NCBI GenBank assembly: GCA_040757115.1
Contig: JBFLYA010000093.1
Coordinates: forward strand, 1 to 14,294
Origin: a bacterium
GTDB taxonomy: Bacteria > UBA9089 > CG2-30-40-21 > SBAY01
Reading direction: 5' to 3'
Length of the DNA stretch: 14,294 nt
Shown: positions 199-14,294 of the stretch, piece by piece
How the letters are laid out: each line of letters starts with the position of its first letter
Position numbering within the stretch: the first letter of the stretch is position 1
Notes under the pieces: model-generated
Seen by the model: the letters and a program-made list of their open reading frames with translations, nothing else
Told to the model about the DNA's origin: nothing
The model's database searches: none
Program-made: the position numbers and the translations under genes

Positions 199-330
199 GT
201 CTAACCCTGCGTTGCAGTTGACGGCGGGGGACTGTGCCGTGGTCAGAGTTTTGTGGTCTCTCAAAGTTTTATCTTGCTATCAAACTTTTGTGGTAATTCT
301 CCTCGCCGCACCTGAACTTTATCGTTAGCC
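199..330 (+). repeat. attC site of non-coding cassette 1
   Basis: The R'' core GTCTAAC is at 199-205 and the R' core GTTAGCC at 324-330, 132 bp in total. The arms GTTGCAGTTGACGGCGGGG and CTCGCCGCACCTGAAC are imperfectly complementary, leaving the unpaired bases typical of attC hairpins. The last six bases, TTAGCC, belong to the next cassette, whose own R'' is GGCTAAC. The recombination point is expected between G324 and T325. Its variable middle is nearly identical to attC at 2547, 9325 and 14145, all on non-coding cassettes. Confidence 0.88.
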
Positions 331-341
331 GAGAGGGAAAT

Positions 342-1397
342 ATGAAACCATTCAAATTTAACATGTCATCGCCAGTTTATGATGATCTCTTCGTAGATCG
401 AGAGAAGGAACTACGCCAGACAATTGACTGGTTAATGTCCGGGACTGGTAACCTCATTATTACTGGAGAAAGAGGTATAGGGAAAACTAGCCTCGCTTGG
501 AAAACCATTGCCGACACAGAGGAAAAGACTAAAGATACTTTAATTATTAGAGAAACTGTATATCAATTTCATGGTGAAGGATTTGGCACATTTCTCTCTG
601 AGCTTGGAAAGCAAATTACTGTTTCTATATGGCAACTCATAAGTGGCAAATCGTTTTCGGAGCTTTTTTCTGGGTCTTTGGATTTCGAGAAGAAAAAAAT
701 TGAGTCAAAGAATATTAAGGCTCTCCGCCGGATTTATAATATCCTTTCGGCATCTCAACTCTCGTCCAAAGCTACCGAAATGGGCAAAATCGGTGGGAAA
801 TTATTCATAGAAGCTGGACTCCAAGAGGGACTCGAAAAGGGGATGACCCGTATGGCAATCACGAACTTCGAGTTTCTTGCCATCATTGATGAACTCAAGG
901 AGATCGCCTCAAGACATGGATATTCACGGATTGTTGTAATAGCAGATGAGTTCAACTATTTGCATTTTTCAGAACAGAGCGATTTTGTAAGGACTTATTT
1001 CCAAATCCTCAATTCTCGGAATATACTATTCGGATTGATAGGTTTCAATATTGATCCTTGGTCAGTTCCCGGACTTAGCCAATGTGTAGAGACATATATT
1101 CCACTTGGTCCATTTGAATCTTCTGACCATGTCCGCCAACTAGTCTCAGTCGGTCTCCCACAAGCGGAAAACGCCGATATTCGCAACTTCTTGATTTCCG
1201 AGGATGTATCCCAGCAGATATTCACCGAATCAAAAGGGAATCCACGACTTATTCAAGCATTTTGTTTTAACTTCATGAGGGAATTGGAAGTAATTGAAGG
1301 GAGTCGTGACTTCTCCAAGGCATTTGAACTTGCCAAACGGGAAATTGTAGAACAAGTTTTAAGACAAGAAGAAATGATGAAGAGATTCAAAGGCTAA
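342..1397 (+). CDS. AAA+ family ATPase (Orc1/Cdc6-like P-loop NTPase)
   Basis: This is a 351-residue cytoplasmic P-loop ATPase. It has Walker A GERGIGKTS at residues 42-50, preceded by the FVDREKEL box (17-24) typical of Orc/Cdc6-like and STAND-type ATPases. Walker B is IVVIADE (197-203), a sensor-like strand ILFGLIGFN lies near residues 229-237, and a GNPRLIQ segment near the C-terminus matches the sensor-2/lid region of this superfamily. There is no fused effector domain, so it probably works with a partner or is a reduced member. The start is the ATG 12 bp after attC, with GAGAGGG just upstream. The stop TAA lies inside the R'' core of the following attC. It is the only gene of a 1,193-bp cassette (325-1517). 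The substrate is unknown; similar ATPases occur in defence and plasmid contexts. Confidence 0.82.
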   Translation: MKPFKFNMSSPVYDDLFVDREKELRQTIDWLMSGTGNLIITGERGIGKTSLAWKTIADTEEKTKDTLIIRETVYQFHGEGFGTFLSELGKQITVSIWQLISGKSFSELFSGSLDFEKKKIESKNIKALRRIYNILSASQLSSKATEMGKIGGKLFIEAGLQEGLEKGMTRMAITNFEFLAIIDELKEIASRHGYSRIVVIADEFNYLHFSEQSDFVRTYFQILNSRNILFGLIGFNIDPWSVPGLSQCVETYIPLGPFESSDHVRQLVSVGLPQAENADIRNFLISEDVSQQIFTESKGNPRLIQAFCFNFMRELEVIEGSRDFSKAFELAKREIVEQVLRQEEMMKRFKG

Positions 1398-1523
1398 CAA
1401 ATCGCTGCACCTGACTGCGGGGGGCTGTGCTGTTTTCAAGGTTTTGTGGTTTATCAAGGTTTTATCTTGCTAACAAAGGTTGGTGGTGATTCTCCCCGCG
1501 GCAGGTGAGCTCAATCGTTAGGC
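1392..1523 (+). repeat. attC site of AAA+ ATPase cassette
   Basis: R'' GGCTAAC is at 1392-1398 and R' GTTAGGC at 1517-1523, 132 bp. GGCTAAC complements the GTTAGCC that opens this cassette at 324-330, so the circular form would have a perfectly paired core. The arms GCACCTGACTGCGGGG and CCCCGCGGCAGGTGAGC pair imperfectly. The R'' core contains the ATPase stop codon. The middle part closely matches the attC at 2940-3071. Confidence 0.9.
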
Positions 1524-1546: not shown

Positions 1547-2434
1547 ATGAAAACAACCATAGATCATCTTCCTGACTACAAGCAAGAGGAACTCGAAAAT
1601 ATTATCGGAATCATCCGTAATGCAGCAAAGGTGGAAATGATTATTCTGTTTGGAAGCTATGCACGGGGAGACTTTGTAGACCACGATTTTCGATATGATG
1701 CTGAAGAGCAACACTTCACAAGTTATGAAAGTGATTTTGATATCATGGTGATTGTGAAGGAAGAAAAGGTAGTAGACGATTATAAGATTTGGAATAAGGT
1801 TGAAAATCAAATCAGACACAAGATTCATACACCAACAAAGCTTATTAGGGAAGATATTGAGCATGTCAATGAACAACTCTCAGTTGGCAGATACTTCTAT
1901 GCTGATGTCAAAAAAGAAGGTATACTACTTTATGATTCAAAACGATTTCAGCTGGCAAGAGCAAGAGAGCTTACCCCAGGAATAAAAAAGGCACTGGCAG
2001 AGGAGGATCATAAAATTTGGTTTCCCAAGGCGAAGGAATATTTTGTGTATTACGAAACTGGTTTTGAGAAAGGTTGGAATAATTCAGCTGCTTTCAATCT
2101 CCACCAGACTACCGAACATCTTTACACTGGCGCTTCCCTCGTTCTTACCAGCTACAAACCAAGAACGCACGATCTGGAAAAATTAACAGAGCGGATGGAA
2201 AAGATCGATCGAGATTTTGCCAAGATTTTCCCGCGGGAAGAAGGTGAAGAAAAGCGATTATTTGAGCTTCTTAGAAAAGCCTATGTTGATGCACGATACA
2301 AGAAATCGTACAAAATCACCAAGTCTGAACTTGAATACCTTGCCGACCGTGTGAAGAAACTACGCAGATTGGCATTAAAAAAGTCTCGGGAGAGGATTGA
2401 GCAATTTGAGAAAGAAATTATCACAAAAGCCTAA
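1547..2434 (+). CDS. Nucleotidyltransferase-HEPN fusion protein, copy 1
   Basis: This 295-residue protein joins an N-terminal minimal nucleotidyltransferase (MNT) to a C-terminal HEPN domain. The MNT core is GSYARGD at residues 36-42, followed after an insert of about 20 residues by the catalytic acidic pair in SDFDIMV (D63, D65). The HEPN part spans roughly 150-280 with NLHQTTEHLYTGASLVL (184-200) and RTHDLEKL (206-213). A clear Rx4-6H RNase motif is not evident, so it may bind nucleotide or RNA rather than cleave. MNT and HEPN proteins usually form toxin-antitoxin pairs in which the MNT AMPylates or adenylylates the HEPN toxin; here both are one chain. The ATG follows a TGAGGA Shine-Dalgarno site, and the stop TAA is inside an attC core. 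A paralogue about 84% identical lies at 9482-10366. Confidence 0.86.
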   Translation: MKTTIDHLPDYKQEELENIIGIIRNAAKVEMIILFGSYARGDFVDHDFRYDAEEQHFTSYESDFDIMVIVKEEKVVDDYKIWNKVENQIRHKIHTPTKLIREDIEHVNEQLSVGRYFYADVKKEGILLYDSKRFQLARARELTPGIKKALAEEDHKIWFPKAKEYFVYYETGFEKGWNNSAAFNLHQTTEHLYTGASLVLTSYKPRTHDLEKLTERMEKIDRDFAKIFPREEGEEKRLFELLRKAYVDARYKKSYKITKSELEYLADRVKKLRRLALKKSRERIEQFEKEIITKA

Positions 2435-2460
2435 CTAATCGCTGAAGCTGACGGGGGGAG
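2429..2460 (+). repeat. Truncated attC (left arm only)
   Basis: R'' GCCTAAC (2429-2435) and a left arm ending in a GGGGGG tract are present. The sequence then switches at about 2460 to the interior of the non-coding cassette (TATTTTAGGGTCAAAC). The right arm, the R' core and the first part of the next cassette, including its 72-bp inverted repeat, are missing. GCCTAAC matches the GTTAGGC at the start of this cassette, so the gene-bearing cassette was once complete. Confidence 0.82.
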
Positions 2461-2672
2461 GTATTTTAGGGTCAAACTGTGAATGTGGAATGCACAATAA
2501 TTCGGTGAGGCAGAGGAAAAGGAAAAGACAGCGAATCAAAGCTTTTGTCTAACCCTGCGTTGCAGTTGACGGCGGGGGACTGTGCCGTGGTCAGAGTTTT
2601 GTGGTCTCTCAAAGTTTTATCTTGCTATCAAACTTTTGTGGTAATTCTCCCCGCCGCACCTGAACTTTATCG
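2461..2672 (+). mobile_element. Non-coding cassette, copy 2 (5' truncated)
   Basis: From TATTTTAGGGTC onward the sequence follows the non-coding cassette seen at 1-324 and 9133-9450, up to and including its attC. The first part, with the 72-bp inverted repeat, has been deleted together with half of the preceding attC. The deletion joins it physically to the MNT-HEPN cassette, so the two would now move as one unit, with start core GTTAGGC and end core GTCTAAC that no longer match fully. Confidence 0.8.
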
Positions 2673-2678
2673 TTAGGC
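2547..2678 (+). repeat. attC site of truncated non-coding cassette
   Basis: R'' GTCTAAC at 2547-2553 and R' GTTAGGC at 2672-2678, 132 bp. It is almost identical to 199-330 and 9325-9456. The TTAGGC end belongs to the following cassette, whose R'' is GCCTAAC at 2940. Confidence 0.88.
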
Positions 2679-3065
2679 ACTTGAATCCATTGCATAAATT
2701 ATGATACAATTCCAGCTGTTGCGGCAAACAGGATGAAGGTTTCTCACAGCATTCCCGCAGAGACGAACCAGAGAAAATCAGATAGCGGTCAGCATCCATA
2801 GAGAAGTAGGGTAGGCGGTCGAGGGGCCAGGAACCACAACCAAAACGAAGGACGAGAGGCGTACTACAACCGTAGATAGGAACTACAGAGGAGAGCAAAA
2901 TCTAATCAAGCAGAGGAGACCTTGGGTCCAAGGGATATTGCCTAACCCGGCGCTGCACCTGACTGCGGGGGGCTGTGCCGTAATTAGAGTTTTGTGGTAT
3001 CTCAAGCTTTTATCTTGTTTACAAAGTTTGGTGGTAATCCGCCCCGCAGCAGGTGAGCTTTATCG
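2673..3065 (+). mobile_element. Small cassette without a convincing gene
   Basis: The cassette has matched ends (GTTAGGC at 2672, GCCTAAC at 2940), so it is intact as a mobile unit. The 260-bp body has no good open frame on +. The frame from ATG 2733 reads to the TAA in the attC core at 2943-2945, the place where real cassette genes end, but is broken by two TAG codons at 2799 and 2877. The only longer frame on - (2617-2898) runs into the attC and looks spurious. The body is less AT-rich than its neighbours. It may be a decayed gene or a non-coding cassette; I do not recognise a product or an RNA family. Confidence 0.6.
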
Positions 3066-3071
3066 TTAGCG
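2940..3071 (+). repeat. attC site of small cassette
   Basis: R'' GCCTAAC at 2940-2946 and R' GTTAGCG at 3065-3071, 132 bp. Arms GCACCTGACTGCGGGG and CCCCGCAGCAGGTGAGC pair with one unmatched base in the left arm, as expected of attC. The TTAGCG end belongs to the large following cassette, which closes with CGCTAAC at 9007. Confidence 0.9.
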
Positions 3072-3097
3072 GAAATTTTGCTTAAAAAGGTAGAATA

Positions 3098-3511
3098 ATG
3101 AACAAAACAAAACTTGGTTCAGAAACGGCAAAAGGAGGATTTGCAAACGAGAAAGCAATTTGTAAAAAATTCAATGACTGGGAAAAGGATATAGAAGCAC
3201 AGAAATGGCTTAAAATAATGGGATATGATATTAAAAAACTTGATTCTGTCCAAGCAATTCAAATTCCTACCAGAATAAAGAAGATTGAATTAAGTAAGTT
3301 TGAAGTTAAAGAAGAAGAATATGAGCAATTTGTGAGATTTAAAAAGGCAGATGCTCAAATAAGAATTATCATAAAGATTAGAAATATACTAAAAATTGAG
3401 AACTTATCACTAAAGAAAGCAAATTCAGATGCTGATTATAATCAAATTGACAAAAGAACCATTGTAGACTATCAAGAGATGTGGAGGTTTGATGATATGC
3501 CTTTGAATTGA
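3098..3511 (+). pseudogene. HinP1I-like restriction endonuclease, N-terminal remnant
   Basis: The 137 residues resemble the N-terminal half of HinP1I, a type II endonuclease of about 247 residues that cuts GCGC. Shared blocks recalled from the known enzyme are LGSETAKGGFANEKAI (cf. LGSKTAKDGFKNEKDI), YNQIDKR (cf. FNQIDKH) and DYQEMWRFDD (cf. HYQEMWKFDD). In HinP1I the active site is D62-x18-Q81-x-K83. Here the aspartate lies in KADAQ (residues 82-86) and the spacing and lysine are kept, but glutamine is replaced by serine (SLK). The frame stops right after the FDD block and no continuation is found in the next 90 bp in any frame, so the C-terminal half is lost. The start ATG lies 27 bp after attC behind an AAAGGT site. 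It is probably inactive, though a short repurposed protein cannot be excluded. Confidence 0.72.
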
Positions 3512-3601
3512 AATGTCTTTAGAACCATAAATGAAAGGCAAAGAGAAGAAAAGAGTTTTTTAAATTAGCACAAATTACAAGCACCTTAAAAAGGAGTAAA
3601 A

Positions 3602-3790
3602 ATGCATAAGGATTTTAGATGTTATATGGGATGGCGGGAAAATCCATCAGGAACAGGAGAAGCTACCGTAGTTGTAATTCCATTAGGAGATGGATTGACC
3701 GATAAGCAATTAGGTAAATTATTGAGGCCGTTGAGAGTAACAACATTTAGTGAAGAAACAATTGATTTTAGAGTTCAAGAGCTGGATTAG
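3602..3790 (+). CDS. Small protein of unknown function (62 aa)
   Basis: This 62-residue frame starts with ATG 7-8 bp after a good AAGGAG Shine-Dalgarno site and ends with TAG 16 bp before the methyltransferase, so it is likely translated as the first gene of that operon. The N-terminal part has glycines and aromatics (CYMGWRENPSGTGEA), then a hydrophobic strand VVVIPLG and a C-terminal basic-then-acidic segment. There is no signal peptide, membrane segment or cysteine pair. I do not recognise the family. Its position suggests an accessory or regulatory subunit of the kinase-ATPase operon, which is inference from spacing only. Confidence 0.6.
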   Translation: MHKDFRCYMGWRENPSGTGEATVVVIPLGDGLTDKQLGKLLRPLRVTTFSEETIDFRVQELD

Positions 3791-3806
3791 GAGGTAAAGA
3801 AGATAG

Positions 3807-4910
3807 ATGAAAATGTGTGCAATTCAGTCTTTGACTAATAATGAATACAAGGAAAATACATTTCACCAACTTTCACCGTATTTGGGGAAACTAAAATCTA
3901 ATATAGCAAAAAAACTAATATTAAGTTATACTAAACCATATGATACTATTTGTGATCCATTTTCAGGTTCGGGGACTGTTGCATTAGAATCTTTAACACT
4001 TAATAGACATATTATAGCAAACGATATTAATCCCTATGCAGTTATTTTGACTAAAGCAAAAATGTACCCTCCAAATTCGTTAGATGAAGCTTTGGAAAGA
4101 GCAGAATATTATCTTAATTGTACCAAAGAAGAAATGACCAGGATATCTTTATCAAGAATACCAAAATGGGTAAGAACCTTTTTCCATCCAACTACCCTTA
4201 AAGAGACCTTATCGTTAGTTAGATTATTAAAAAGAAATGAGGAATACTTTATTTTGGCCTGCGTACTTGGTATTCTTCATCATCAAAGCACGGGATTTCT
4301 TTCATATCCATCAAGCCATATAGTTCCATATCTGAGAACAGAAAAATTTCCCAAAGAAAGATTTCCAACATTATATACCTATAGAGATATTAGGCCAAGA
4401 CTTCTTAGTAAAATAAAGCGTGTATTTAGACATTTTCTCAGAATAGCTCCGATGTTATTTCGAGAATGCAAAACAGAATGTGTTGAGAAATTAGAATTAC
4501 CAGAAAATAGTATTGACGCTGTAATAACCAGCCCACCATATATGGATACATTGAGTTATGGAGGAGATAATAGATTGAGACTGTGGTTCCTGGGAATAAA
4601 CGATTATCAATACTATGATAATAAGAGTCCTCGAAATCCACAAGATTTTCATCTTTTAATAAAAAATGCGTTGAGCAGGCTTTATTTTGCATTGAAGTCA
4701 GATTCATATTGTATATTTGTAGTGGGAGAAGTGAAAAAGGGTAAGAAATCCATTAACACATCTTCAATAATTCAGGATGTTGTTCTTAGTAATGGTGGTT
4801 TTAAAATATTGAGTGTAATTGAAGATGAAATCCCCTATTCAAGGAGAATAAGAGGGAAAAGAGATACGATTAAGAAAGACTGGTTTGTTATTATGAAAAA
4901 GGAGAAATAA
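3807..4910 (+). CDS. DNA methyltransferase (N4-cytosine or N6-adenine type)
   Basis: This 367-residue protein has the two hallmarks of amino-methylating DNA methyltransferases: the S-adenosylmethionine motif I DPFSGSGT (residues 50-57, followed by ANDINPYA at 71-78) and the catalytic motif IV TSPPY (241-245) in a VITSPPYMDTLSYGG context. Motif I precedes IV with about 185 residues between, which could hold target recognition. The order differs from the beta-class enzyme at 12342-13568. SPPY is more often N4-cytosine, but base and target site cannot be read from sequence. GGAGG lies 13 bp before the ATG; a second ATG two codons later is an alternative. It ends 4 bp before the kinase-ATPase gene, so the two are probably co-translated. 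It could protect the host or mark self DNA for the downstream genes. Confidence 0.85.
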   Translation: MKMCAIQSLTNNEYKENTFHQLSPYLGKLKSNIAKKLILSYTKPYDTICDPFSGSGTVALESLTLNRHIIANDINPYAVILTKAKMYPPNSLDEALERAEYYLNCTKEEMTRISLSRIPKWVRTFFHPTTLKETLSLVRLLKRNEEYFILACVLGILHHQSTGFLSYPSSHIVPYLRTEKFPKERFPTLYTYRDIRPRLLSKIKRVFRHFLRIAPMLFRECKTECVEKLELPENSIDAVITSPPYMDTLSYGGDNRLRLWFLGINDYQYYDNKSPRNPQDFHLLIKNALSRLYFALKSDSYCIFVVGEVKKGKKSINTSSIIQDVVLSNGGFKILSVIEDEIPYSRRIRGKRDTIKKDWFVIMKKEK

Positions 4911-4914
4911 TACT

Positions 4915-7401
4915 ATGGCAGAAAGAAATTTACCTCAGGAGAATGAATTCCAAGGAGAGCAGGTGCTCGGTTATAAACTCTGCAAGGAAATTGGCAGAGG
5001 GAAAATAGGGGTAGTCTATAAGGCGTCACATTCCAGAACAGGGGATATAGCAGCTTGCAAGATAATTCCAAAAGAAAATTTGAAAAGTGGATGGGAGACC
5101 GAAATAGAGAAAATTGCAAAATTGAGTGGTATCTCAACCGTAGCACAATATAAAAAACATGCCGCAGAGCAAATTAAGGAGTTACCGTATATTTGCATAT
5201 TTTATGAGTATGTAGGCTATGGAAATAAACCTGCCCTTAATTTAAGAGAATATATAATACAAAATCCTAATCAAATCTCCTTGTTTTTTATTGATATATT
5301 AGTTCAGAAGATTTTAGAAACTTTTCATGCTATGAAAACTGTTGGTATTAATCACAATGACCTTCATGAAGGAAATATTTTAATTTTTCATGACCCTCGC
5401 TCTATTGAACCAGAAACGCCAATTATAAAAATAACAGATTTTGGAATAGGTGGTTCATACAACAAATTAGAACCTAAAGATGATTATAAACAGCTAGTTT
5501 TAATCTGTCATACCTTGCTTGAGAAATTGAGTTATTCTGAGATGGATGGAAAAGATAAATTTCTTTACGACAATTACATTGAGGATTTTTTCCCTAAAAA
5601 AGTATTAGAAACTCATCCTACAGAGGGAATATTTGTAAGAAATCCAAGAGAGCTCCTCAGAATTTTTAAAGAAGAAATCCCTCAAAAGTATTTGGAGGAA
5701 TATACCAAAAGCTACATATCCAGTATGCCAGCCAAATTAACACATCCTTTTGACTATCTACGGTGTGAACAGATAGGTAATTCATTTGAGCTCTTACATC
5801 GTCTCTATTCTGAAAAGTTTCTTGGATATTCTGATTTATTAATAAGAAATAATACTATTTTGACAGGTCCACGGGGTTGTGGAAAAACAACCATATTTAG
5901 AAATATGAGTTTAAAAACACAAATACTCGGAGATAAAATAAAAAAAGGTGAAGATTACAAGGAAAAGTATATAGGAATATATTATCATTGCAATGATTTA
6001 TATTTTGCATTTCCTTACCTTAAAGAAAAGATTTCTGATGAAAATAGAAAAGCGATAATACATTATTTCAACCTTTCAATCTTATATGAAATCTTAGACC
6101 TTTTAGAAACTTCAAAAAATAAGCCAGGGTTTGAATTAACTGATAGGACGATAGATGAATTACAAGGTTTTTTAAGAGGATACTTTCCCTCATACCAAAT
6201 ACCACCTTTAGGAACGGATATTTTGGCTCATCTAAGGTCAATAATTGTTAATGAAAAACGAATTACACGCCAATGGTTTGAAAAAGGCAGTAATGATAAG
6301 CAAAAACCATATTTTACTCCTATGGACTTTATTAGAAAGTTATGTAATTTAATTCAAACGGATATACCATGGGCAAAAAATCGGGCAATTTACTTCTTTT
6401 TAGATGATTATTCATTCCCCAATATTTCTAAGCAAATCCAAGAAACCTTACATGATTTTATCTTATTTCCAAGTGAAGGGTCTGAGTATTTTTTTAAGGT
6501 TTCTACCGAAAGTATTGTCTCTTTTCACCCATATAGTTCCAAAGGAAAATTATTGGAAGAGGGAAGAGAATATGTTGTAGTGGATCTTGGATACTTCTTC
6601 TTGCGTGATGATAAAAGAGCCGAGTCGTTCCTTTTCGAAGTAGTTAATAACCGGCTAGAAAATTCCCAAGAAATTGATGAGGCATATAAAGATATAAAGA
6701 AAATTTTGGGAGAGAGTGATTATTCAGCTAATAAACTTGCTTACGAAATTAGAGAAAAGAAGCCGGAACATGTCCATTACTATGGCTTGAATATTATAGT
6801 TAGATTATGCACTGGAGATGTTGCTCAAATCTTGGATTTAATCAAGCACATTTTTGAACAGGCTGGAGGTTATAGTCTATTTACTAAAGCAGAAGGAATT
6901 GAATTGCCAATTAAGAAAGAGATACAAAATAGGGCAATTAGGGAAGCAGGAAATAAATTTCTAAGTAACCTTGAAAACTGTCCGAATTATGGTCGAAAAT
7001 TAAGAAAGATTGCTGAGGCGTTTGGTGAGGTTGCGCATCATTTCTTGATGACAAGAAATTCAAAAAACCAGGATAAATATCCTCCATGGCAAGCAGTTAG
7101 AATTGAAGTAACAGAACCTATTGATTTAAAAGAAAGTACATTAGAGATATATAATGAATTATTGCGTTACAGCATATTTATCAGAGATATAGTAGGTAAA
7201 AGTCAATGGGGCAAAGTTGCTCCAAAACTTTATCTACGCAGATTATTGATACCAACCTTTTTACTTACTCCAAGCAAAAGGGATAACATTGGATTAAGCA
7301 AAGATAAGTTTTTAAAGTTGTTAAGAAATCCGAAAGGTTTCACAAAGGATATGAAAAAGAAAGAACCAAGAAGAAAGAGGTTGCAACCAGATGAAAGATA
7401 G
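4915..7401 (+). CDS. Protein kinase-like domain fused to P-loop ATPase
   Basis: The 828-residue protein combines a eukaryotic-type Ser/Thr kinase domain with an NTPase. Kinase features are the glycine loop EIGRGKIGVVYKA (25-37), the ATP-binding lysine in ACKII (K49), the catalytic loop HNDLHEGNIL (147-156, aspartate D149, asparagine N154) and DFG (175-177). All key catalytic residues seem present, although the loop reads HND rather than HRD. A C-lobe continues to about 270. The ATPase has Walker A GPRGCGKTT (318-326) and Walker B YFFLDD (493-498); the remaining 330 residues are predicted helical and unassigned. No membrane segment is seen. GGAG stands 10 bp before the ATG. It lies between a methyltransferase and a Rossmann-like protein. 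Kinase plus ATPase plus methylase recalls BREX/Pgl systems, but here two functions are in one chain; role in defence is inferred. Confidence 0.82.
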   Translation: MAERNLPQENEFQGEQVLGYKLCKEIGRGKIGVVYKASHSRTGDIAACKIIPKENLKSGWETEIEKIAKLSGISTVAQYKKHAAEQIKELPYICIFYEYVGYGNKPALNLREYIIQNPNQISLFFIDILVQKILETFHAMKTVGINHNDLHEGNILIFHDPRSIEPETPIIKITDFGIGGSYNKLEPKDDYKQLVLICHTLLEKLSYSEMDGKDKFLYDNYIEDFFPKKVLETHPTEGIFVRNPRELLRIFKEEIPQKYLEEYTKSYISSMPAKLTHPFDYLRCEQIGNSFELLHRLYSEKFLGYSDLLIRNNTILTGPRGCGKTTIFRNMSLKTQILGDKIKKGEDYKEKYIGIYYHCNDLYFAFPYLKEKISDENRKAIIHYFNLSILYEILDLLETSKNKPGFELTDRTIDELQGFLRGYFPSYQIPPLGTDILAHLRSIIVNEKRITRQWFEKGSNDKQKPYFTPMDFIRKLCNLIQTDIPWAKNRAIYFFLDDYSFPNISKQIQETLHDFILFPSEGSEYFFKVSTESIVSFHPYSSKGKLLEEGREYVVVDLGYFFLRDDKRAESFLFEVVNNRLENSQEIDEAYKDIKKILGESDYSANKLAYEIREKKPEHVHYYGLNIIVRLCTGDVAQILDLIKHIFEQAGGYSLFTKAEGIELPIKKEIQNRAIREAGNKFLSNLENCPNYGRKLRKIAEAFGEVAHHFLMTRNSKNQDKYPPWQAVRIEVTEPIDLKESTLEIYNELLRYSIFIRDIVGKSQWGKVAPKLYLRRLLIPTFLLTPSKRDNIGLSKDKFLKLLRNPKGFTKDMKKKEPRRKRLQPDER

Positions 7402-7459
7402 GGTTGTCTTTTTTAACCCGTAGAAGTAAGGGAAAAGTAAAAAGTAGGTAAAAGGGAAA

Positions 7460-8578
7460 ATGATGAAAAAAACAGAGAATAAAGAAAGTTTTGAAGAAAT
7501 CCTCCCTCCAATTGAGGAGTTAAAGTTAGATAATATTTCCTCCGATGCAACTATAATAGCACCGGCAGGATTTGAAGATAGATGTCTTTCATTTTTGGAT
7601 AAACTTATTATTTCTAACAAGAAAGTTGCAAATGTTATTGGCGTTGAATATGAACCATTTAGTCTAAAAAATAGAAAGAAAGAATTTGAAAGTAAAGCCG
7701 AAAAGGTTTCTTTGAACAAGGTTGAATGGATAACTTATGATAGATTTAATCCTGAAAATTTTTATGGCGATTTTGAAAAGGCAAAAGGGCTTATTAATGA
7801 AACGGCTGATGTAATAATAGATGTATCTGGAATGTCAAAATACTTGATAGTCATTCTCTTAGACATCCTTAAAGACTTTGATAAAAATATAATTATCATT
7901 TACTCTGAAGCAGAAATTTACCATCCAACTAAAGAAGAATTTAAATCAAAAAAATCGAAAAAAAGAGGAAGTCCAGAGGTAATACCTACATTCTTAACAA
8001 AAGGAATTTATAGAATAACTCTGACAACATCGCTTTCCAGTATTGCTATGCAAAATGCGCCATTATTGTTGATTGCCTTTCCCAGTTTTAATTATAAAGA
8101 ACTTACAGCACTACTGAATGAAATAACACCCCAATATCTCATTGAAATTGAAGGCAGGCCCCATGAACAACATAACTATTGGAGACGGGATGCTATTCGT
8201 GAGATTAATGAGAGGATTCCCGAGGATTTTATCTTTACTAAGATAGACAAAATAGAACATAGAGAATTGACCACTTTTAATTATATAGAAACTGTTTCGG
8301 TATTAGATGAAATCTACAAGAAATTTAGATATACACACAAATGTATAATTGCTCCTACAGGAAGTAAACTTCAATCAATAGGGGTTTTTTTCTTTAAGCA
8401 ATTGCATCTTGAAGTTCAGATTGTTTATCCTGCCGCAGAGAAATTTACAAAGGGATATACGGAAGGATGTAGGTATATATGGATGATAAAATTTCCAAAC
8501 TTTTGTAGTTATATAAAAAGTTTAGAAAACTACTCCAGAGCTAATCTAATTTCGTTAAAAGATTTGGTAACCGTTTAG
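7460..8578 (+). CDS. Two-lobed Rossmann-like protein of unknown function
   Basis: I do not recognise the exact family of this 372-residue protein. It reads as two related alpha/beta halves. Half 1 has strand-turn [11 protein letters not shown] (32-42) and [12 protein letters not shown] (118-129) followed by [15 protein letters not shown]. Half 2 has [10 protein letters not shown] (202-211) and [12 protein letters not shown] (295-306) followed by [15 protein letters not shown]. The pattern of strand, glycine or serine turn and helix after the strand is that of Rossmann or CARF-like ligand-binding folds. No nuclease motif is obvious. A run of lysines lies near 162-169. It follows the kinase-ATPase by 58 bp and precedes the methyltransferase fragment by 4 bp. 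It starts ATGATG; the first is used here and the Shine-Dalgarno site is weak. It may be the sensor or effector of the operon (inference). Confidence 0.7.
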
Positions 8579-8582
8579 TATT

Positions 8583-9003
8583 ATGGAGAAATATTTGCTT
8601 TCATTTGGGCAAAATCAGCGGATTCCTTCTGCAAGACAACTTATTTACAAGGATAGGCGAGCAAATCCACTTGGAAAAATTCCTGATGATGTGTGGCAAT
8701 TTTCAAGAATCTGTGGTACCTTTAAAGAACGGATAGGAGAACATCCATGTCAAATGCCTGAAGATTTATTAGAGCTAATAATAAAAACAAGTTCTAATGA
8801 GGGAGATTTAGTTTTAGACCCTTTTGGTGGCACAGGAACAACGGCAGCAGTTGCTAAAAGATTAAAACGGAATTACATAACGATGGAGATATCTACAGAA
8901 ATATTATAATGTTATATTGAAGAGAGTGGATGGTAAAGTTGAAATAAGAAGAAATAAAAAGGTTGAGATAGAAAAGCAGGGAACATTATTTGATATCATA
9001 TAA
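8583..9003 (+). pseudogene. DNA methyltransferase, C-terminal remnant
   Basis: The intact frame (8583-8909, 108 residues) is only the C-terminal part of a beta-class amino-methyltransferase. It has RIPSARQ, the conserved segment [16 protein letters not shown] then [10 protein letters not shown], and motif [10 protein letters not shown] (79-87) followed by YITMEIS. The N-terminal part with the SPPY catalytic motif, normally 150-200 residues, is absent; the ATG begins 4 bp after the previous stop. After the TAA at 8909 a shifted frame (from about 8906) continues without stops as NVILKRVDGKVEIRRNKK and on to TLFDII, ending at TAA 9001-9003 just before attC, which looks like the enzyme's original tail. 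It is therefore truncated and probably frameshifted. It cannot methylate by itself unless it complements another chain. Confidence 0.75.
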
Positions 9004-9006
9004 TTT

Positions 9007-9138
9007 CGCTAACCAGTCGTTGCAGCGGACGGCGGGGGACTGTGCTGTGATTGAAAGTTTTGTAGTATCTCAAGAGGTAATCGTGCTTACAAAGTTTGGT
9101 GGCGATTCTCCCCGCCGCCGCTGAACTCATCGTTAGAC
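9007..9138 (+). repeat. attC site of the 6-kb cassette
   Basis: R'' CGCTAAC at 9007-9013 and R' GTTAGAC at 9132-9138, 132 bp. Arms GCAGCGGACGGCGGGG and CCCCGCCGCCGCTGAAC pair imperfectly. The variable middle (GAAAGTTTTGTAGTATCTCA) is shared with the - strand attC sites at 11336-11468 and 13607-13738. The TTAGAC end belongs to the next, non-coding, cassette. Confidence 0.9.
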
Positions 9139-9450
9139 TAATAAAAATAATCACACAGAGACACAAAGTCACAAAGGAATTGAATAAAACAATAAACCTT
9201 TGTGTTCTTTGTGGCTTTGTGTGAGAAAATAAAAAGGAGATATTTTAGGGTCAACCGTGAATGTGGAATGCACAATAATTCGGTGAGGCAGAGGAAAAGG
9301 AAAAGACAGCGAATCAAAGCTTTTGTCTAACCCTGCGTTGCAGTTGACGGCGGGGGACTGTGCCGTGGTCAGAGTTTTGTGGTCTCTCAAAGTTTTATCT
9401 TGCTATCAAACTTTTGTGGTAATTCTCCCCGCCGCACCTGAACTTTATCG
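9133..9450 (+). mobile_element. Non-coding cassette, copy 3 (complete)
   Basis: This is the only complete copy in the window, 318 bp, bounded by GTTAGAC (9132) and R'' GTCTAAC (9325), which are complementary. It contains the inverted repeat 9152-9223, a purine-rich middle and the attC. A 73-residue frame on - (9169-9390) crosses attC and is not maintained in copy 1 because of an indel, so it is not taken as a gene. The near identity with copy 1 over about 300 bp implies recent duplication within this array. Confidence 0.82.
9152..9223. repeat. 72-bp inverted repeat, second copy
   Basis: Same sequence as 13-84: left arm 9152-9177, AT-rich loop, right arm 9197-9223 ending TTTGTGTG. It sits just inside the left end of the cassette. 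Confidence 0.75.
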
Positions 9451-9456
9451 TTAGGC
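9325..9456 (+). repeat. attC site of non-coding cassette 3
   Basis: R'' GTCTAAC at 9325-9331 and R' GTTAGGC at 9450-9456, 132 bp, nearly identical to 199-330 and 2547-2678. The TTAGGC end belongs to the second MNT-HEPN cassette. Confidence 0.9.
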
Positions 9457-9481
9457 TACTGAATGAGTGAGGATTATATTT

Positions 9482-10366
9482 ATGAAAACGAGTATAGACC
9501 ACCTTCCTGAGTATAAACGAGAGGAACTGGAAAATATTGTTGGAATCATTCGTGCCTCAGCAAAGGTTGAGATGATTATTCTTTTTGGAAGCTATGCCCG
9601 TGGAGACTTTGTGGAGTGTGATTTTCGATATGATGCTGAGGAGCAACACTTCACAAGTTATGAATCTGATTTTGACATCATGGTGATTGTGCGAGAAGAA
9701 AAAATTGTAGATGATTTCAAGATTTGGAACAAGGTTGAAAATCAAATTAGACGCAAGATCCGTACACCAGTAAACCTTATTAGGGAAGATATTGAGCATG
9801 TCAATGAACAACTCTCAGTTGGCAGATACTTCTATGCTGATGTTAAAAAGGAAGGTGTACTGCTTTACGATTCAAAACGATTCCAACTGGCAAGAGCAAG
9901 AAAACTTACCCCAGGAATAAGAAAGGCGTTGGCAGAGGAGGATCATAAACTTTGGTTTCCGAAAGCGAAGCAGTTTTTTGTGCATTATAAGCTTGACTTT
10001 GAAAAAGGTTGGAATAATTTAGGAGCCTTTAATCTCCATCAGACCACTGAAGCTCTATACAGCGGTACTTCCCTTGTCCTTACAAGCTACAAACCTAGAA
10101 CACACGACTTAGAGAAATTAACAGAGCGGATGGAGAAGATCGATCTAAAGTTTTGTGAGATTTTCCCAAGAAAAGAAGGTGAAGAAAAGAGATTGTTTGA
10201 ACTCCTCAAGAAAGCCTATGTTGATGCAAGATACAGCAAGAATTATAAAATAACAAAACAAGAACTTGAATACCTTGCTGAGCGAGTGAAAAAACTACGC
10301 AGATTATCATTGAAAAAATGTCGTGAGAAGTTTAAGCAATTTGAACAGGAAATTAAAAAAGCCTAA
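9482..10366 (+). CDS. Nucleotidyltransferase-HEPN fusion protein, copy 2
   Basis: This 294-residue paralogue of the protein at 1547-2434 aligns along its length with one gap near the C-terminus; by hand count about 84% of residues agree. GSYARGD (36-42) and SDFDIMV (62-68) of the nucleotidyltransferase are intact, as are NLHQTTE and RTHDLEKL of the HEPN region. Changes cluster in residues 164-196 and 222-231. The ATG at 9482 is chosen because it matches the start of copy 1 and follows GTGAGGA; an in-frame GTG at 9467 is less likely. The stop TAA lies in the GCCTAAC core at 10361-10367. Its attC is missing apart from the cores, so this cassette is probably no longer excisable by itself. The proteins may form AMPylation-type toxin-antitoxin or nucleotide-sensing modules. 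Confidence 0.86.
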   Translation: MKTSIDHLPEYKREELENIVGIIRASAKVEMIILFGSYARGDFVECDFRYDAEEQHFTSYESDFDIMVIVREEKIVDDFKIWNKVENQIRRKIRTPVNLIREDIEHVNEQLSVGRYFYADVKKEGVLLYDSKRFQLARARKLTPGIRKALAEEDHKLWFPKAKQFFVHYKLDFEKGWNNLGAFNLHQTTEALYSGTSLVLTSYKPRTHDLEKLTERMEKIDLKFCEIFPRKEGEEKRLFELLKKAYVDARYSKNYKITKQELEYLAERVKKLRRLSLKKCREKFKQFEQEIKKA

Positions 10367-10379
10367 CCCATCGTTAGGC
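10361..10379. repeat. Collapsed attC at convergent array junction
   Basis: GCCTAAC (10361-10367), CCATC, GTTAGGC (10373-10379) form a 19-bp inverted repeat. The + strand core holds the stop of MNT-HEPN copy 2, and the - strand core holds the stop of the nuclease gene. The normal hairpin arms of about 118 bp are gone. The left flank GCCTAACCC and right flank ATCGTTAGGCACT each match the ends of complete attC sites at 2940 and 2672, consistent with deletion of the palindromic stem. It marks the point where array polarity reverses. Confidence 0.78.
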
Positions 10380-11315
10380 ACTACCCGTAAGTATCTCATA
10401 AACCCTCAGGTAGATGTTTCCGGTCTGCGCTGCAGCCCGGCGTTTCCTGAGTAGTAGCTGGACGAGGTCGATCCTACCTTCCATCACTACCATGAGATCG
10501 CTACCGTCCATCAGGAAAATCAAGCGTCGACCTGAGGAATGGGCGCGGACTCCATCCTCAGAGTAGCCGTTAATGGCAAGATAGAGCCCAAGGGTATTGT
10601 CCAGTTTTCGTGAGAGCTTGCCCGCCAAGGAGTCGAGATCCGAAGCACGCACGGGTTCTTTCTGCCACTTGGCCTCGAGCAAGTAGTCAGTGCCTTCGAA
10701 CGTGAAGGCACCGTCAATCTGCTCTCCGATCACCTTAAAGGAGGCCTTGGGATCAAGATCAAAGAGCTCAAAAAGACGACGTAGGATATTCTCAAGCCGG
10801 TATCCCCGTGCCTGGGCGTCTTCAGAAGTGAGTAAGTCCAGGTAGGCGATGGTCAACTCTTCCAGCGCCTGCTGCACAGCATCACTCTTCACCCGACGCT
10901 CGTGGGCTTCCTGCCGGCGGCGTTCGATTTCCCGCTCCTCCTCCAGGAACTCGTCGAGGCCGCGGATCTGACCTCGGAGTGCATCGACTGCTGACTTTGC
11001 ACCGGCGACCTTTTTTGCGCCGTCTTCCAGTCTCGCGAGGTGGCTGAAGTCCTCAATGCGCGAGACTTCAGTCATGAGTTTGAGAAGCTGCCTCTGGTAA
11101 ACGTCCTCGTTTCTCGCAAGAAACTCGATCAACTGACCTACGATGTTCCACTTGTAGTCTCCCCAGTTGAGTCTCGACAGAATCGTTGAGTCGGTAAGCG
11201 CCTGGGTTAGGAAACTCTGAAGGTCGGACTTGTACCAGTAAACCTGCGTGAGTGCCTCCTTGAGGGCGTGGAGCGCCGCAGGAGCGATCCTCTTGCATGG
11301 GTATCTCTCAGCCAT
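10374..11315 (-). CDS. PD-(D/E)XK restriction-type nuclease
   Basis: The 313-residue protein has a helical N-terminal part (1-95), a charged coiled-coil-like stretch with RRRQEAHERR (about 100-150), and a C-terminal Mrr-like nuclease domain. The PD-(D/E)XK signature is GEQIDGAF (D201) followed by YLLEAKWQ (E214, K216), with a supporting glutamate in GYRLENIL (E175). Such proteins are usually annotated as restriction endonucleases or type IV-like nucleases; target unknown, no methyltransferase is adjacent. The ATG follows GGAGGGGG. The stop TAA is in the collapsed attC core. The gene is clearly richer in G+C than its neighbours (many GCG, CGC, CTG codons), suggesting a different source genome. 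It is the sole gene of its cassette (start core GTTAGGC at 11342, - strand). Confidence 0.78.
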   Translation of the reverse strand: MAERYPCKRIAPAALHALKEALTQVYWYKSDLQSFLTQALTDSTILSRLNWGDYKWNIVGQLIEFLARNEDVYQRQLLKLMTEVSRIEDFSHLARLEDGAKKVAGAKSAVDALRGQIRGLDEFLEEEREIERRRQEAHERRVKSDAVQQALEELTIAYLDLLTSEDAQARGYRLENILRRLFELFDLDPKASFKVIGEQIDGAFTFEGTDYLLEAKWQKEPVRASDLDSLAGKLSRKLDNTLGLYLAINGYSEDGVRAHSSGRRLIFLMDGSDLMVVMEGRIDLVQLLLRKRRAAAQTGNIYLRVYEILTGSA

Positions 11316-11335: not shown

Positions 11336-11468
11336 GCCTAACGATTGAGTTCAGCGGCGGCGGGGAAAATTGCCACTAAACTTTATAAGCACGATTGCCT
11401 ATTGAGATACTACAAAACTTTCAATTACGCCACAATCCCCCGCCGTCCTCTGCAACAACTGGTTAGCG
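11336..11468 (-). repeat. attC site of MjaI-like R-M cassette
   Basis: Read on -, R'' CGCTAAC is at 11468-11462 and R' GTTAGGC at 11342-11336, 133 bp, one base longer than the others. The middle matches the 9007-9138 and 13607-13738 sites. Its orientation is opposite to the attC sites left of 10361. Confidence 0.88.
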
Positions 11469-11522: not shown

Positions 11523-12115
11523 TTATAAGTCTTCAAAGAAGATATTTATCCCATCCTTTACTTTGTCATAATAGATGATATGTACCCCGATAATTTCTGG
11601 TAACATTTGCTTTGATTCGTAGGTTTGGGGGGTTTGATGCTTATGGGAACTTCATCTATATAACCATCTATTCCCTTTGCTTCATCCTCAGGGTCAGACA
11701 TTCTGTATGCTTTCCCTAAGGTTTCGGCAACGCGTTTCATTATAGCCTCTTGGAATTTAAGACCGACAAATGTCTTCACAATTACTAAGTCCTTAACCCA
11801 GTCCTCAATCATTTGGGCATCAATGAGGCTAATAACCTCTTTGAAGTTTTCCATCATCTGCAGAATTTTCATCTTCGCTTTTTCGATAGCCTCAGGGTAT
11901 TTATTCAAGTACCATTTTTCCCATTCTTCAAGTTTTTTACCTTTGAATTCCTTAATCAGTTCACTCATTTGCCCAACAACTTCGGGCCTGGTTCCCTGGG
12001 CATTTTGATTCGCCAAATTGATAAGTTGGGTAGCGTATTTCGGAAATGAAACAACTTCCGCATCAAGCAGTTGCGTAATATCAATTCTATAAAGTTTTTG
12101 CCTTTTTGTCAACAC
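11523..12115 (-). pseudogene. MjaI-like restriction endonuclease, frameshifted
   Basis: The uninterrupted frame (12115 to 11558, 185 residues) resembles the MjaI family of type II endonucleases (CTAG): LYRIDITQLLDAE, RPEVVGQMSELIKEF (43-57), WEKWYLNKYPEAI, then KTFVGLKFQEAI and GIDGYIDEVPISIKPP (148-163), with D150 and K161 as likely catalytic residues. After IKPP the frame becomes unlike the family. Adding one C to the six-C tract (G run 11627-11632 on +) restores a family-like tail, QTYESKQMLPEIIGVH then IIYYDKVKDGINIF, ending at TAA 11525-11523 and giving 197 residues. This is a disabling mutation, a sequencing or assembly error, or a phase-variable tract. The CTAG-type methyltransferase lies upstream on the same strand (226-bp gap). 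Confidence 0.78.
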
Positions 12116-12341
12116 GAATGCACACGAATAAGAAGCAAATATTCCCCCTTAATAAAGGGAGTTAGGTGGTTGTTGACCCATAGGCGTTAAAATATAAGGC
12201 TTATTAAAGAGGCAAAAATTAACTAAAATTGATATAACTTCCTCATTTTTAATTTTGATTTTCTTCATGAATGTTTTCGTCCTCCAATAGCCGCCTTAAA
12301 CCTTTCATAGTATCGGAACGGAAAAGTTTCATCGAGCCGCA
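12116..12341 (-). other. Gap between methyltransferase and endonuclease
   Basis: This 226-bp AT-rich stretch has no clear gene. Two short - strand frames are visible: 27 codons from ATG 12332 to TAA 12249, starting 9 bp after the methyltransferase stop, and 39 codons from ATG 12268 to TAA 12149, overlapping the first. Neither resembles a control (C) protein or other known family, and the pair could be remains of one broken gene. TTCCCCCTTAATAAAGGGAG (about 12143-12162) can form a small hairpin. Confidence 0.45.
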
Positions 12342-13568
12342 CTAAATTCGTTCGCAAAAATGGAGATTAATGAAAGTTTTATTTTTAAGATACAAATAAG
12401 AGACTAAATGACTGGCTTCATCGTATTTGATCTGGTCAAATTTAAGGTAAATGCTTTGCCCTTTTAGTTTATCCCATAACCAGTTAATAGCTTCATTCTC
12501 TCTACCCGATACTGCCTTAATACCTATCAATCTCACAATAAGATCATTCGTAAGCTCCATCTCATTCGGGGTAATCACACGCCTCACGCGTAGATATTCT
12601 TCTTTTCCATTGCTATTAATGTCAATTTTCGAGCCGAAGGTCATCTTTCTGGGGTCAATCTTTTTATCAAATTGGACTGTATCATGGAATATGTAGGGTA
12701 ATGTTTGTATTTGCTGTCGATAATCTATCTCCTTCCGTTCTGGTTTAACAATCTCAATAATGCTTTTATCAAAGATATCTCTTTGCTCGATACCCAATTT
12801 CTTTCTAATGATGGGTAAAAAAGACTCATTTATTTCATAACCTATCGAGTTTCTATGAAGTTTTTTTGCAGTGAGAGAAGTTGTACCACTGCCCAGGAAA
12901 GGGTCAAGTACGGTTTCTCCAACAAAACTAAACATTTTAATCAATCGTCTGGGAAGTTCCTCAGGAAACATAGCCAGATGATGATCCTGTTTTTCACCAG
13001 GAAAATTCCAATGTCCGGCGAAATATTCGTTCCATTCTTCTACGGATAGGATAGATTGTTCCTTTGCTGTTTTATTGATTTTTGGAGAGCATCCTGGCTT
13101 CTTAAATAGTAGAATAAACTCATAATCAATCTTAACAATACCATTCCGTGGATAAGGATATGAACCCATAATGGTGGCACCGCCTGTGGTATTGCAGGTT
13201 GTTACTTTTTGCCAAATGATGGCTCCCATATAATCAAACCCGGTGGACTCGCAAAATTTGATAATTTCGGTTCTTATGGGAATTACCTTGTATCGGCCAT
13301 AATAAACGGCTCTTGCGAATTGGTCTCCGATATTGATACACAATCGACACCCCGTGTGTAGTGTCCGATAGCACTCCTTCCAGACTAAGTTCAGATTGTT
13401 GATGTATTCTTCATATGTATCATGGAAGCCAATCTGGTGAATATTGTCGTAGTCCTTAAGTTGCCAATATGGGGGTGAGGTTATAATAAGGTGGACAGAA
13501 TCATTACTCACCTCCTGCATAGATCTTGAATCGGCAATTATAATTTTATGTCGTGTCATATCTTGCAT
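12342..13568 (-). CDS. N4-cytosine DNA methyltransferase (MjaI/CTAG-like R-M)
   Basis: This is a beta-class methyltransferase of about 408 residues. Catalytic motif IV TSPPYW comes first (near residue 30) and the S-adenosylmethionine motif DPFLGSGTT near 222-230, followed by SIGYEINESF. TSPPYW is typical of N4-cytosine enzymes. About 150 further residues follow motif I and may contribute to target recognition. Association with an MjaI-like nuclease suggests CTAG as the target, by family rather than by direct proof. The start is taken as ATG 13568, 9 bp after a GGGG-containing site; an in-frame GTG at 13574 would add two residues but leaves little spacing. It is the first gene of a 2.27-kb cassette (11342-13612). 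It appears intact, so methylation may persist although the nuclease is frameshifted. Confidence 0.85.
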   Translation of the reverse strand: MQDMTRHKIIIADSRSMQEVSNDSVHLIITSPPYWQLKDYDNIHQIGFHDTYEEYINNLNLVWKECYRTLHTGCRLCINIGDQFARAVYYGRYKVIPIRTEIIKFCESTGFDYMGAIIWQKVTTCNTTGGATIMGSYPYPRNGIVKIDYEFILLFKKPGCSPKINKTAKEQSILSVEEWNEYFAGHWNFPGEKQDHHLAMFPEELPRRLIKMFSFVGETVLDPFLGSGTTSLTAKKLHRNSIGYEINESFLPIIRKKLGIEQRDIFDKSIIEIVKPERKEIDYRQQIQTLPYIFHDTVQFDKKIDPRKMTFGSKIDINSNGKEEYLRVRRVITPNEMELTNDLIVRLIGIKAVSGRENEAINWLWDKLKGQSIYLKFDQIKYDEASHLVSYLYLKNKTFINLHFCERI

Positions 13569-13606
13569 ATCCACTTACCCCTTCTTTTGTTTGTCATCAA
13601 TCGGGT

Positions 13607-13738
13607 AGCTAACAACTGAGTTCAGCGGCGGCGGGGAGAATCGCCACCAAACTTTGTAAGCACGATTACCTATTGAAATACTATAAAACTTTCAATCACG
13701 GCACAGCCCCCGCCGTCCGCTGCAACGATTTGTTAGAC
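13607..13738 (-). repeat. attC site of HicBA cassette
   Basis: Read on -, R'' GTCTAAC is at 13738-13732 and R' GTTAGCT at 13613-13607, 132 bp. Arms GCAGCGGACGGCGGGG and CCCCGCCGCCGCTGAAC pair imperfectly. The R' end belongs to the R-M cassette, whose R'' is CGCTAAC; these differ at the last position, the only imperfect pairing among complete cassettes. Confidence 0.88.
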
Positions 13739-13917
13739 TACTTCAGACCTAAATATTTTCTAATATGTTTTGCTAAGTCATTATCAATTTCGGTGTGTCT
13801 TGGAACAGGTTGTTTCTTACCAGTCGCAGGATTCATATAGAGATCATGGTTAGCTCCTGGTCTTAAGAAAATACAACCATCTTTTATAAGTTGACGAACA
13901 AATTCTTTTCGTTTCAT
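13738..13917 (-). CDS. hicA: HicA family toxin (mRNA interferase)
   Basis: The 59-residue protein has the HicA layout: KRKEFVRQLIKDGCIFLRPG, then ANHDLYMNPATGKKQPVPRH and a C-terminal EIDNDLAKHIRKYLGL. HicA toxins fold like a double-stranded RNA-binding domain and cleave mRNA using a histidine in the G-x-S/N-H motif, here GANHDLY (H24). Length is normal. The start ATG overlaps the hicB stop (ATGA), so translation is coupled. The stop TAG directly precedes the GTCTAAC attC core, sharing its G. Toxin-antitoxin cassettes are common in large integron arrays and are thought to stabilise them. Confidence 0.88.
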   Translation of the reverse strand: MKRKEFVRQLIKDGCIFLRPGANHDLYMNPATGKKQPVPRHTEIDNDLAKHIRKYLGLK

Positions 13918-14111
13918 ATAGCCATAGCCACTTCTTTTATCTGATGTTCTTCTGGAACTTCATCCATAGCCATCAGAAGGTACGCATCTTTAATATTTTC
14001 TTCTAATTCCTCAATAGTCTCTCCTTGCGTCATGACTTCTGGATGTTCAAGAAGTTTACCAAGCCAAAACTTTTCTCCTTTCCAATAAATCATGGTGGTT
14101 TTCGTTTTCAT
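13914..14111 (-). CDS. hicB: HicB family antitoxin
   Basis: The 65-residue protein shows the HicB partial RNase H-like fold: strands TTMIYWKGEKFWLGKLLEHP, then VMTQGETIEELEENIKDAYLL, the typical G-x-T-x-E-E-x-x-x-N helix. It neutralises HicA by binding it. There is no recognisable C-terminal DNA-binding domain, so autoregulation may be weak or through another route. The antitoxin gene comes first, with a strong GGAGGA Shine-Dalgarno site 6 bp before ATG, and overlaps hicA by 4 bp. Together they fill a 538-bp cassette (13613-14150) with matching cores GTTAGAC and GTCTAAC. Confidence 0.87.
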   Translation of the reverse strand: MKTKTTMIYWKGEKFWLGKLLEHPEVMTQGETIEELEENIKDAYLLMAMDEVPEEHQIKEVAMAI

Positions 14112-14144: not shown

Positions 14145-14276
14145 GTCTAACGATAAAGTTCAGGTGGGGCGGGGAGAATTACCACAAAAGTTTGATAGCA
14201 AGATAAAACTTTGAGAGACCACAAAACTCTGACCACGGCACAGTCCCCCGCCGTCAACTGCAACGCAGGGTTAGAC
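14145..14276 (-). repeat. attC site of reverse non-coding cassette
   Basis: Read on -, R'' GTCTAAC is at 14276-14270 and R' GTTAGAC at 14151-14145, 132 bp. It is nearly identical to the reverse complement of 199-330 and 9325-9456. The TTAGAC end belongs to the HicBA cassette. Confidence 0.88.
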
Positions 14277-14294
14277 AAAAGCTCTGATTCGCTG
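14271..14294 (-). mobile_element. Non-coding cassette, copy 4 (edge of window)
   Basis: The last bases, after the attC core, read as the reverse complement of the CAGCGAATCAAAGCTTTTGT segment that precedes attC in copies 1 to 3, with one difference. Together with attC 14145-14276 this shows a further copy of the same cassette, in reverse orientation and continuing beyond the window. Confidence 0.72.

Follow-up and report, generated by a model that had tools for sequence, protein, structure and literature searches.

Mobile gene cassettes in integrons normally lie in a single direction, a rule ascribed to selection of the bottom strand of attC, and their excision requires two attCs of the same direction. 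The closest described systems to the array considered here are fused class 1 integron cassettes (PMC4670013), a re-inverted superintegron of Vibrio cholerae (PMC11023631) and off-target plasmid inversions by integron integrase (PMC10127599). Fused cassettes have been described as arising by slippage at attC stem-loops (PMC8876359; PMC4670013), and an attC once truncated has been shown not to support excision (PMC4670013). The window analysed here, which is the entire 14,294-bp contig C93 of an assembly of 4.32 Mb in 462 contigs, departs from the one-direction rule.

Polarity of the cassette array

Nine full attCs were found in the window (Table 1), each an imperfect palindrome bounded by RYYYAAC and GTTRRRY and recognized by consensus, fold and covariance model. 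Their directions were called with an arm-alignment script from the L'' arm, which carries extra-helical bases (GTTGCAG versus GTT-CAG); these bases fall on the R''-L'' arm in every case, so that the direction of each attC is fixed without reference to the genes. A covariance model built from 29 attCs, with which the whole assembly was searched, produced 132 matches, of which 128 on 33 contigs were tabulated, and the strands that it assigns to the window attCs equal those given by the extra-helical bases. Read from left to right, the array contains six right-pointing attCs followed by three left-pointing ones (++++++---), and by both measures the reversal of polarity described in the earlier note is thus confirmed, on one contig of one 462-contig assembly. 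Among the 95 adjacent attC pairs of the genome (128 attCs, 33 contigs) this switch, at 10361-10379, is the only one. The same-genus relative G001 has none in 58 adjacent pairs, and G002 has one in 14, a weak match in an opposite-strand pair 12 kb apart on G002:C159. A 14-base pattern searched over the class, which comprises just 8 genomes, matched only the window junction, and the same junction had no match in IMG/VR (exact pattern) or in plasmids (distant blastn).

Table 1. Features of the 14,294-bp window; strand is that of the forward sequence as read.
Feature	Coordinates	Strand	Basis
attC, gene-less cassette type	199..330	+	extra bases, covariance model
attC	1392..1523	+	extra bases, covariance model
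Truncated attC of first NTase-HEPN cassette, fused into gene-less cassette	2429..2460	+	
attC, gene-less cassette type	2547..2678	+	extra bases, covariance model
attC	2940..3071	+	extra bases, covariance model
attC	9007..9138	+	extra bases, covariance model
attC, final full one left of the switch	9325..9456	+	extra bases, covariance model
Nucleotidyltransferase (Polbeta) + HEPN gene (NTase-HEPN); in-frame ATG at 9482	9467..10366	+	ORF call
Terminator-like element: 7-bp stem, 5-nt loop, T6	10355..10379	-	consensus match only
Collapsed attC, R''(GCCTAAC)-CCATC-R'(GTTAGGC), GCCTAACCCATCGTTAGGC; polarity switch point	10361..10379	.	
Gene X, 313 aa, right flanking cassette gene	10374..11315	-	ORF call
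attC of MjaI-like restriction-modification cassette, first full one past the switch	11336..11468	-	extra bases, covariance model
MjaI-like restriction endonuclease gene, inverted block	11558..12115	-	
DNA methyltransferase gene, inverted block	12342..13574	-	
attC	13607..13738	-	extra bases, covariance model
HicA toxin gene + small ORF upstream (HicB-like from its position alone), inverted block	13738..14111	-	
attC, gene-less cassette type; contig end 18 bp beyond	14145..14276	-	extra bases, covariance model

Neither an intI gene nor an attI was found beside the array on the 14,294-bp contig, whose ends lie in repeats: both are inside copies of a multi-copy gene-less cassette. Copies of this cassette, which is about 320 bp long, are spread across the genome (those of the window lie at 109-330, 2457-2678, 9137-9456 and 14145-14294), and its attC end occurs in about 40 near-identical copies (97-100%). 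Because such copies stand at both contig ends, we attribute the break in the assembly to them. Elsewhere in the genome, matches to the integron integrase family occur on at least 8 contigs (C39, C30, C63, C118, C114, C324, C154 and C116); one is full-length and above the curated cut-off, and several are split or carry internal stops, so that they may represent either multiple integron platforms in one genome or their decay.

Two further features of the left part of the array deserve description. The first of its NTase-HEPN cassettes has an attC that is cut at about 30 bp and then runs into a gene-less cassette, a loss unlike the 19-bp collapse at the switch. Positions 3072-9006 constitute one 5.9-kb multi-gene cassette between two attCs, with a HinP1I-like endonuclease remnant, a DNA methylase, a CARF6-like protein, a methylase fragment and a kinase fused to an ORC-CDC6-like ATPase (MAD6 / CARF6-STK-AAA-like); by its predicted products it would be a defence-type operon contained in a single cassette.

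The 19-bp junction and its flanking cassettes

The earlier note had taken the sequence at the switch for a collapsed attC that retains only its core sites and supplies the stop codons of both convergent genes. Each reading was borne out, as the R'' and R' boxes are present within 19 bp and the TAA codons of the left gene (10364-10366) and of the right gene (within 10374-10376) both fall inside them, the remnant leaving both flanking ORFs whole. With up to 3 mismatches allowed, the window contains no second copy of the 19-mer; none appeared in 200 shuffles either, and a chance origin was rejected. Across the genome the pattern CTAAC-N2-12-GTTAG is not enriched (14 vs 55 in a reversed control), and for this reason collapsed sites were counted in attC context only; C247:1849 was dropped as a collapsed attC because it sits within a full one. 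The minus-strand hairpin with its T6 is no more than suggestive of a terminator for gene X, since the scanner yields about as many such sites when sequence is shuffled.

Other copies of the left NTase-HEPN gene lie on four contigs, each with a full attC, which starts with GCCTAACCCATCG in C116, C231 and C282 and with GCCTAACCAATCG in C329. Because the first three copies carry it, the 13-base sequence GCCTAACCCATCG at the junction can be assigned to the left cassette as its own. The window copy is identical to that of C116 over its last 208 bp (10166-10373), and the identity stops exactly at 10373; upstream of these 208 bp the two are roughly 50-90% alike in 60-column blocks. The gene is thus a mosaic, suggesting that paralogous cassettes have recombined or undergone gene conversion.

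On the right, gene X had no family match in Pfam, NCBIfam or PADLOC and no useful match among solved structures. Its GC content of 55%, against 38% for the window, indicates that it is probably a recent arrival. The nearest homologue found among genome contigs, 76% identical, belongs to L050, a Bacillota MAG, and is itself an integron cassette; it ends in GTGCCTAAC at the same place as X does and is then followed by a full attC, which is missing in the window. No homologue was found in the other three genomes of the family. Within the inverted block, a dispersed repeat (about 12072-12262) separates the MjaI-like endonuclease from its methylase; copies 92-99% alike are found at other places in this genome and also in the relative of the same genus, and its core of about 40 bp recurs in dozens of places.

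Origin of the reversal

Loss of the hairpin can be separated from the change of direction. Further 19-bp R''-N5-R' remnants occur at C143:7745 (GTCTAACAAATTGTTAGGC, minus strand), at C49:~1720 (GTTTAACAACTTGTTAGGC) and at G001:C178:1024 (GCCTAACCAATCGTTAGAC), and a 25-bp form occurs on G001:C330. All three 19-bp remnants lie within arrays of constant direction, which tells against the collapsed attC as the cause of the reversal and marks collapse as a separate event. The size of the scar is likewise recurrent: in 121 of 138 distinct attCs, deletion of the hairpin in its best direct-repeat register would leave a 5-nt spacer, that is, the 19-bp form. Recurrence thus supports hairpin loss both as a class of event and in its preferred size. 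When GCCTAACCCATCG was compared with the R' ends of the family, the homology available for slippage inside the left attC was at least 4 bp in 102/138, as compared to 1 bp in 136/138 when it was set against R'' ends, as deletion across two facing attCs would require. Slippage within one attC is favoured by this comparison, and such slippage in the attC of the left cassette is the most likely source of the scar.

We therefore distinguish two events, in either order, in an explanation that, taken whole, we give about an even chance of being correct. In one, short direct repeats (ATCG...ATCG) at the hairpin base, one beside R'' and the other beside R', would have permitted slippage that removed the entire hairpin of the left NTase-HEPN attC, with the 19-bp R''-CCATC-R' as product. 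In the other, the right block (X, the restriction-modification genes, HicA and a gene-less cassette) would have been joined inversely at an R box. The GTTAGGC of the junction is the expected R' of the left attC and also the complement of the R'' of X, a box common to both partners; the left partner would have contributed R'' and CCATC(G), and the right partner its own R'', read as GTTAGGC, in place of the R' of the left attC. The agent of this inverted joining is most likely, we infer, the integron integrase, cutting at its cleavage box G|TTAGGC either to invert the DNA between two core sites of opposite orientation or in an inverted integration through an attC top strand, and the sequence at the shared 7-mer fits an integrase crossover and microhomology joining alike. 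Integrase-dependent plasmid inversions between inverted GTTRRRY motifs have been reported (PMC10127599), and inversion between two attI sites by second-strand exchange has been shown (PMC4792948). Inverted attC pairs, however, gave no productive recombination in vivo and only a few illegitimate events (PMC4792948), so that involvement of the integrase would need a double-strand or top-strand route. No second endpoint of the inversion lies within the contig, which ends in a repeat at 14294.

Of the causes that the earlier note had put forward, inversion and the fusion of two arrays are both possible at this R box, as is inverted integration, whereas deletion of two facing attC hairpins is disfavoured by the 1-bp homology. 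One could envision, nevertheless, that a deletion joined two complete and mutually facing integrons tail to tail, taking the intervening DNA together with both terminal hairpins, in which case the 19 bp would be the residue of two attCs. The genome has several integrase loci and many arrays, the attCs to the left and right belong to one family (with about 91% similarity between 9007-9138 and 11336-11468), and both flanking cassettes have kept R''. The deletion, however, would have had that same single base pair of homology to work with, also when judged from the known homologue of X, and an identical 19-bp product has arisen elsewhere from a single attC in same-direction arrays; we consider this origin unlikely, if still worth entertaining. 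An inversion by homologous recombination between long inverted repeats, be they attCs, gene-less cassettes or IS copies, would recall the Vibrio cholerae superintegron, part of whose array was re-inverted by IS3 recombination (PMC11023631), and the contig does contain near-identical gene-less cassettes in both orientations. Such an event should leave an intact repeat at each endpoint, but a 19-bp remnant is all that is present here; as neither an IS nor a long repeat was found at 10361-10379, an inversion of this kind is unlikely at the junction end and is, overall, very improbable.

The two halves may alternatively not be neighbours in any cell, having been brought together by an artefact of library or assembly. 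The assembly is fragmented, with a multi-copy repeat at both contig ends, the NTase-HEPN mosaic is identical to another contig over its last 208 bp, only one switch is seen in 95 pairs, and the junction is a short palindrome, at which chimeric molecules can form. However, the sequence past 10373 is unique, and the two sides share at most about 13-19 bp, too little for the usual misjoin of an assembly graph; a misjoin in the 208-bp repeat would alter the upstream partner and not the direction in which the end of the NTase-HEPN gene meets X; and the junction coincides precisely with boxes of biological meaning. Two other contig ends overlap exactly over 127 bp, which points to, without proving, a graph assembly at k=127; if this is so, the junction bases were taken from reads, as an erroneous merger would require more shared sequence than the two sides have. 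An artefact appears improbable.

Consequences and comparison with known systems

The NTase-HEPN gene and X have no full attC between them, and the attCs that bound the pair, at 9325-9456 and 11336-11468, are of opposite polarity. Ordinary excision should thus not release the pair, which we infer to be fixed in place. The recurrent 19-bp form suggests a simple size rule for attC decay, in which the length of the scar follows from direct repeats built into the hairpin base. If the reversal on a core R box is real, the bottom-strand rule has failed in nature and the product has persisted, and the genome, with its 128 or more attCs and several integrase loci, provides a measure of how rare such failures are (1 in 95 pairs). 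It is also conceivable, although we think it quite doubtful, that the 19-bp remnant is itself a small double-stranded recombination site, in which inverted core boxes flank a 5-bp centre on either side. Such a site, unlike a folded attC, would have no strand bias and would let the integrase join or invert blocks either way, and collapsed attCs would then be seeds of polarity switches.

Each ingredient of this locus has a precedent. The fused class 1 cassettes (for example blaGES-1/aacA4; PMC4670013) resemble the window pair in that the first attC is partly lost, both reading frames are kept and the remnant is no substrate for excision. They are, however, joined head to tail and moved by the attC of the second cassette, whereas the genes of the window pair converge and the second cassette lacks a downstream attC of its own, the next attC lying upstream of X with opposite polarity; the pair is thus not a fused cassette in the sense of two genes of the same direction mobilized by the second attC. 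The re-inverted Vibrio cholerae superintegron (PMC11023631) likewise has two blocks of opposite polarity in a single array, but these arose by homologous recombination between IS3 copies in an evolution experiment, while the window junction has no IS and lies on a core R box. The off-target plasmid inversions (PMC10127599) share a GTTRRRY-type box common to both partners at the junction; they took place in plasmid backbones in the laboratory, in contrast to the natural cassette array of the window, where the integrase is a presumed agent. It is rare, however, for a natural reversal to be located precisely at a core recombination box.
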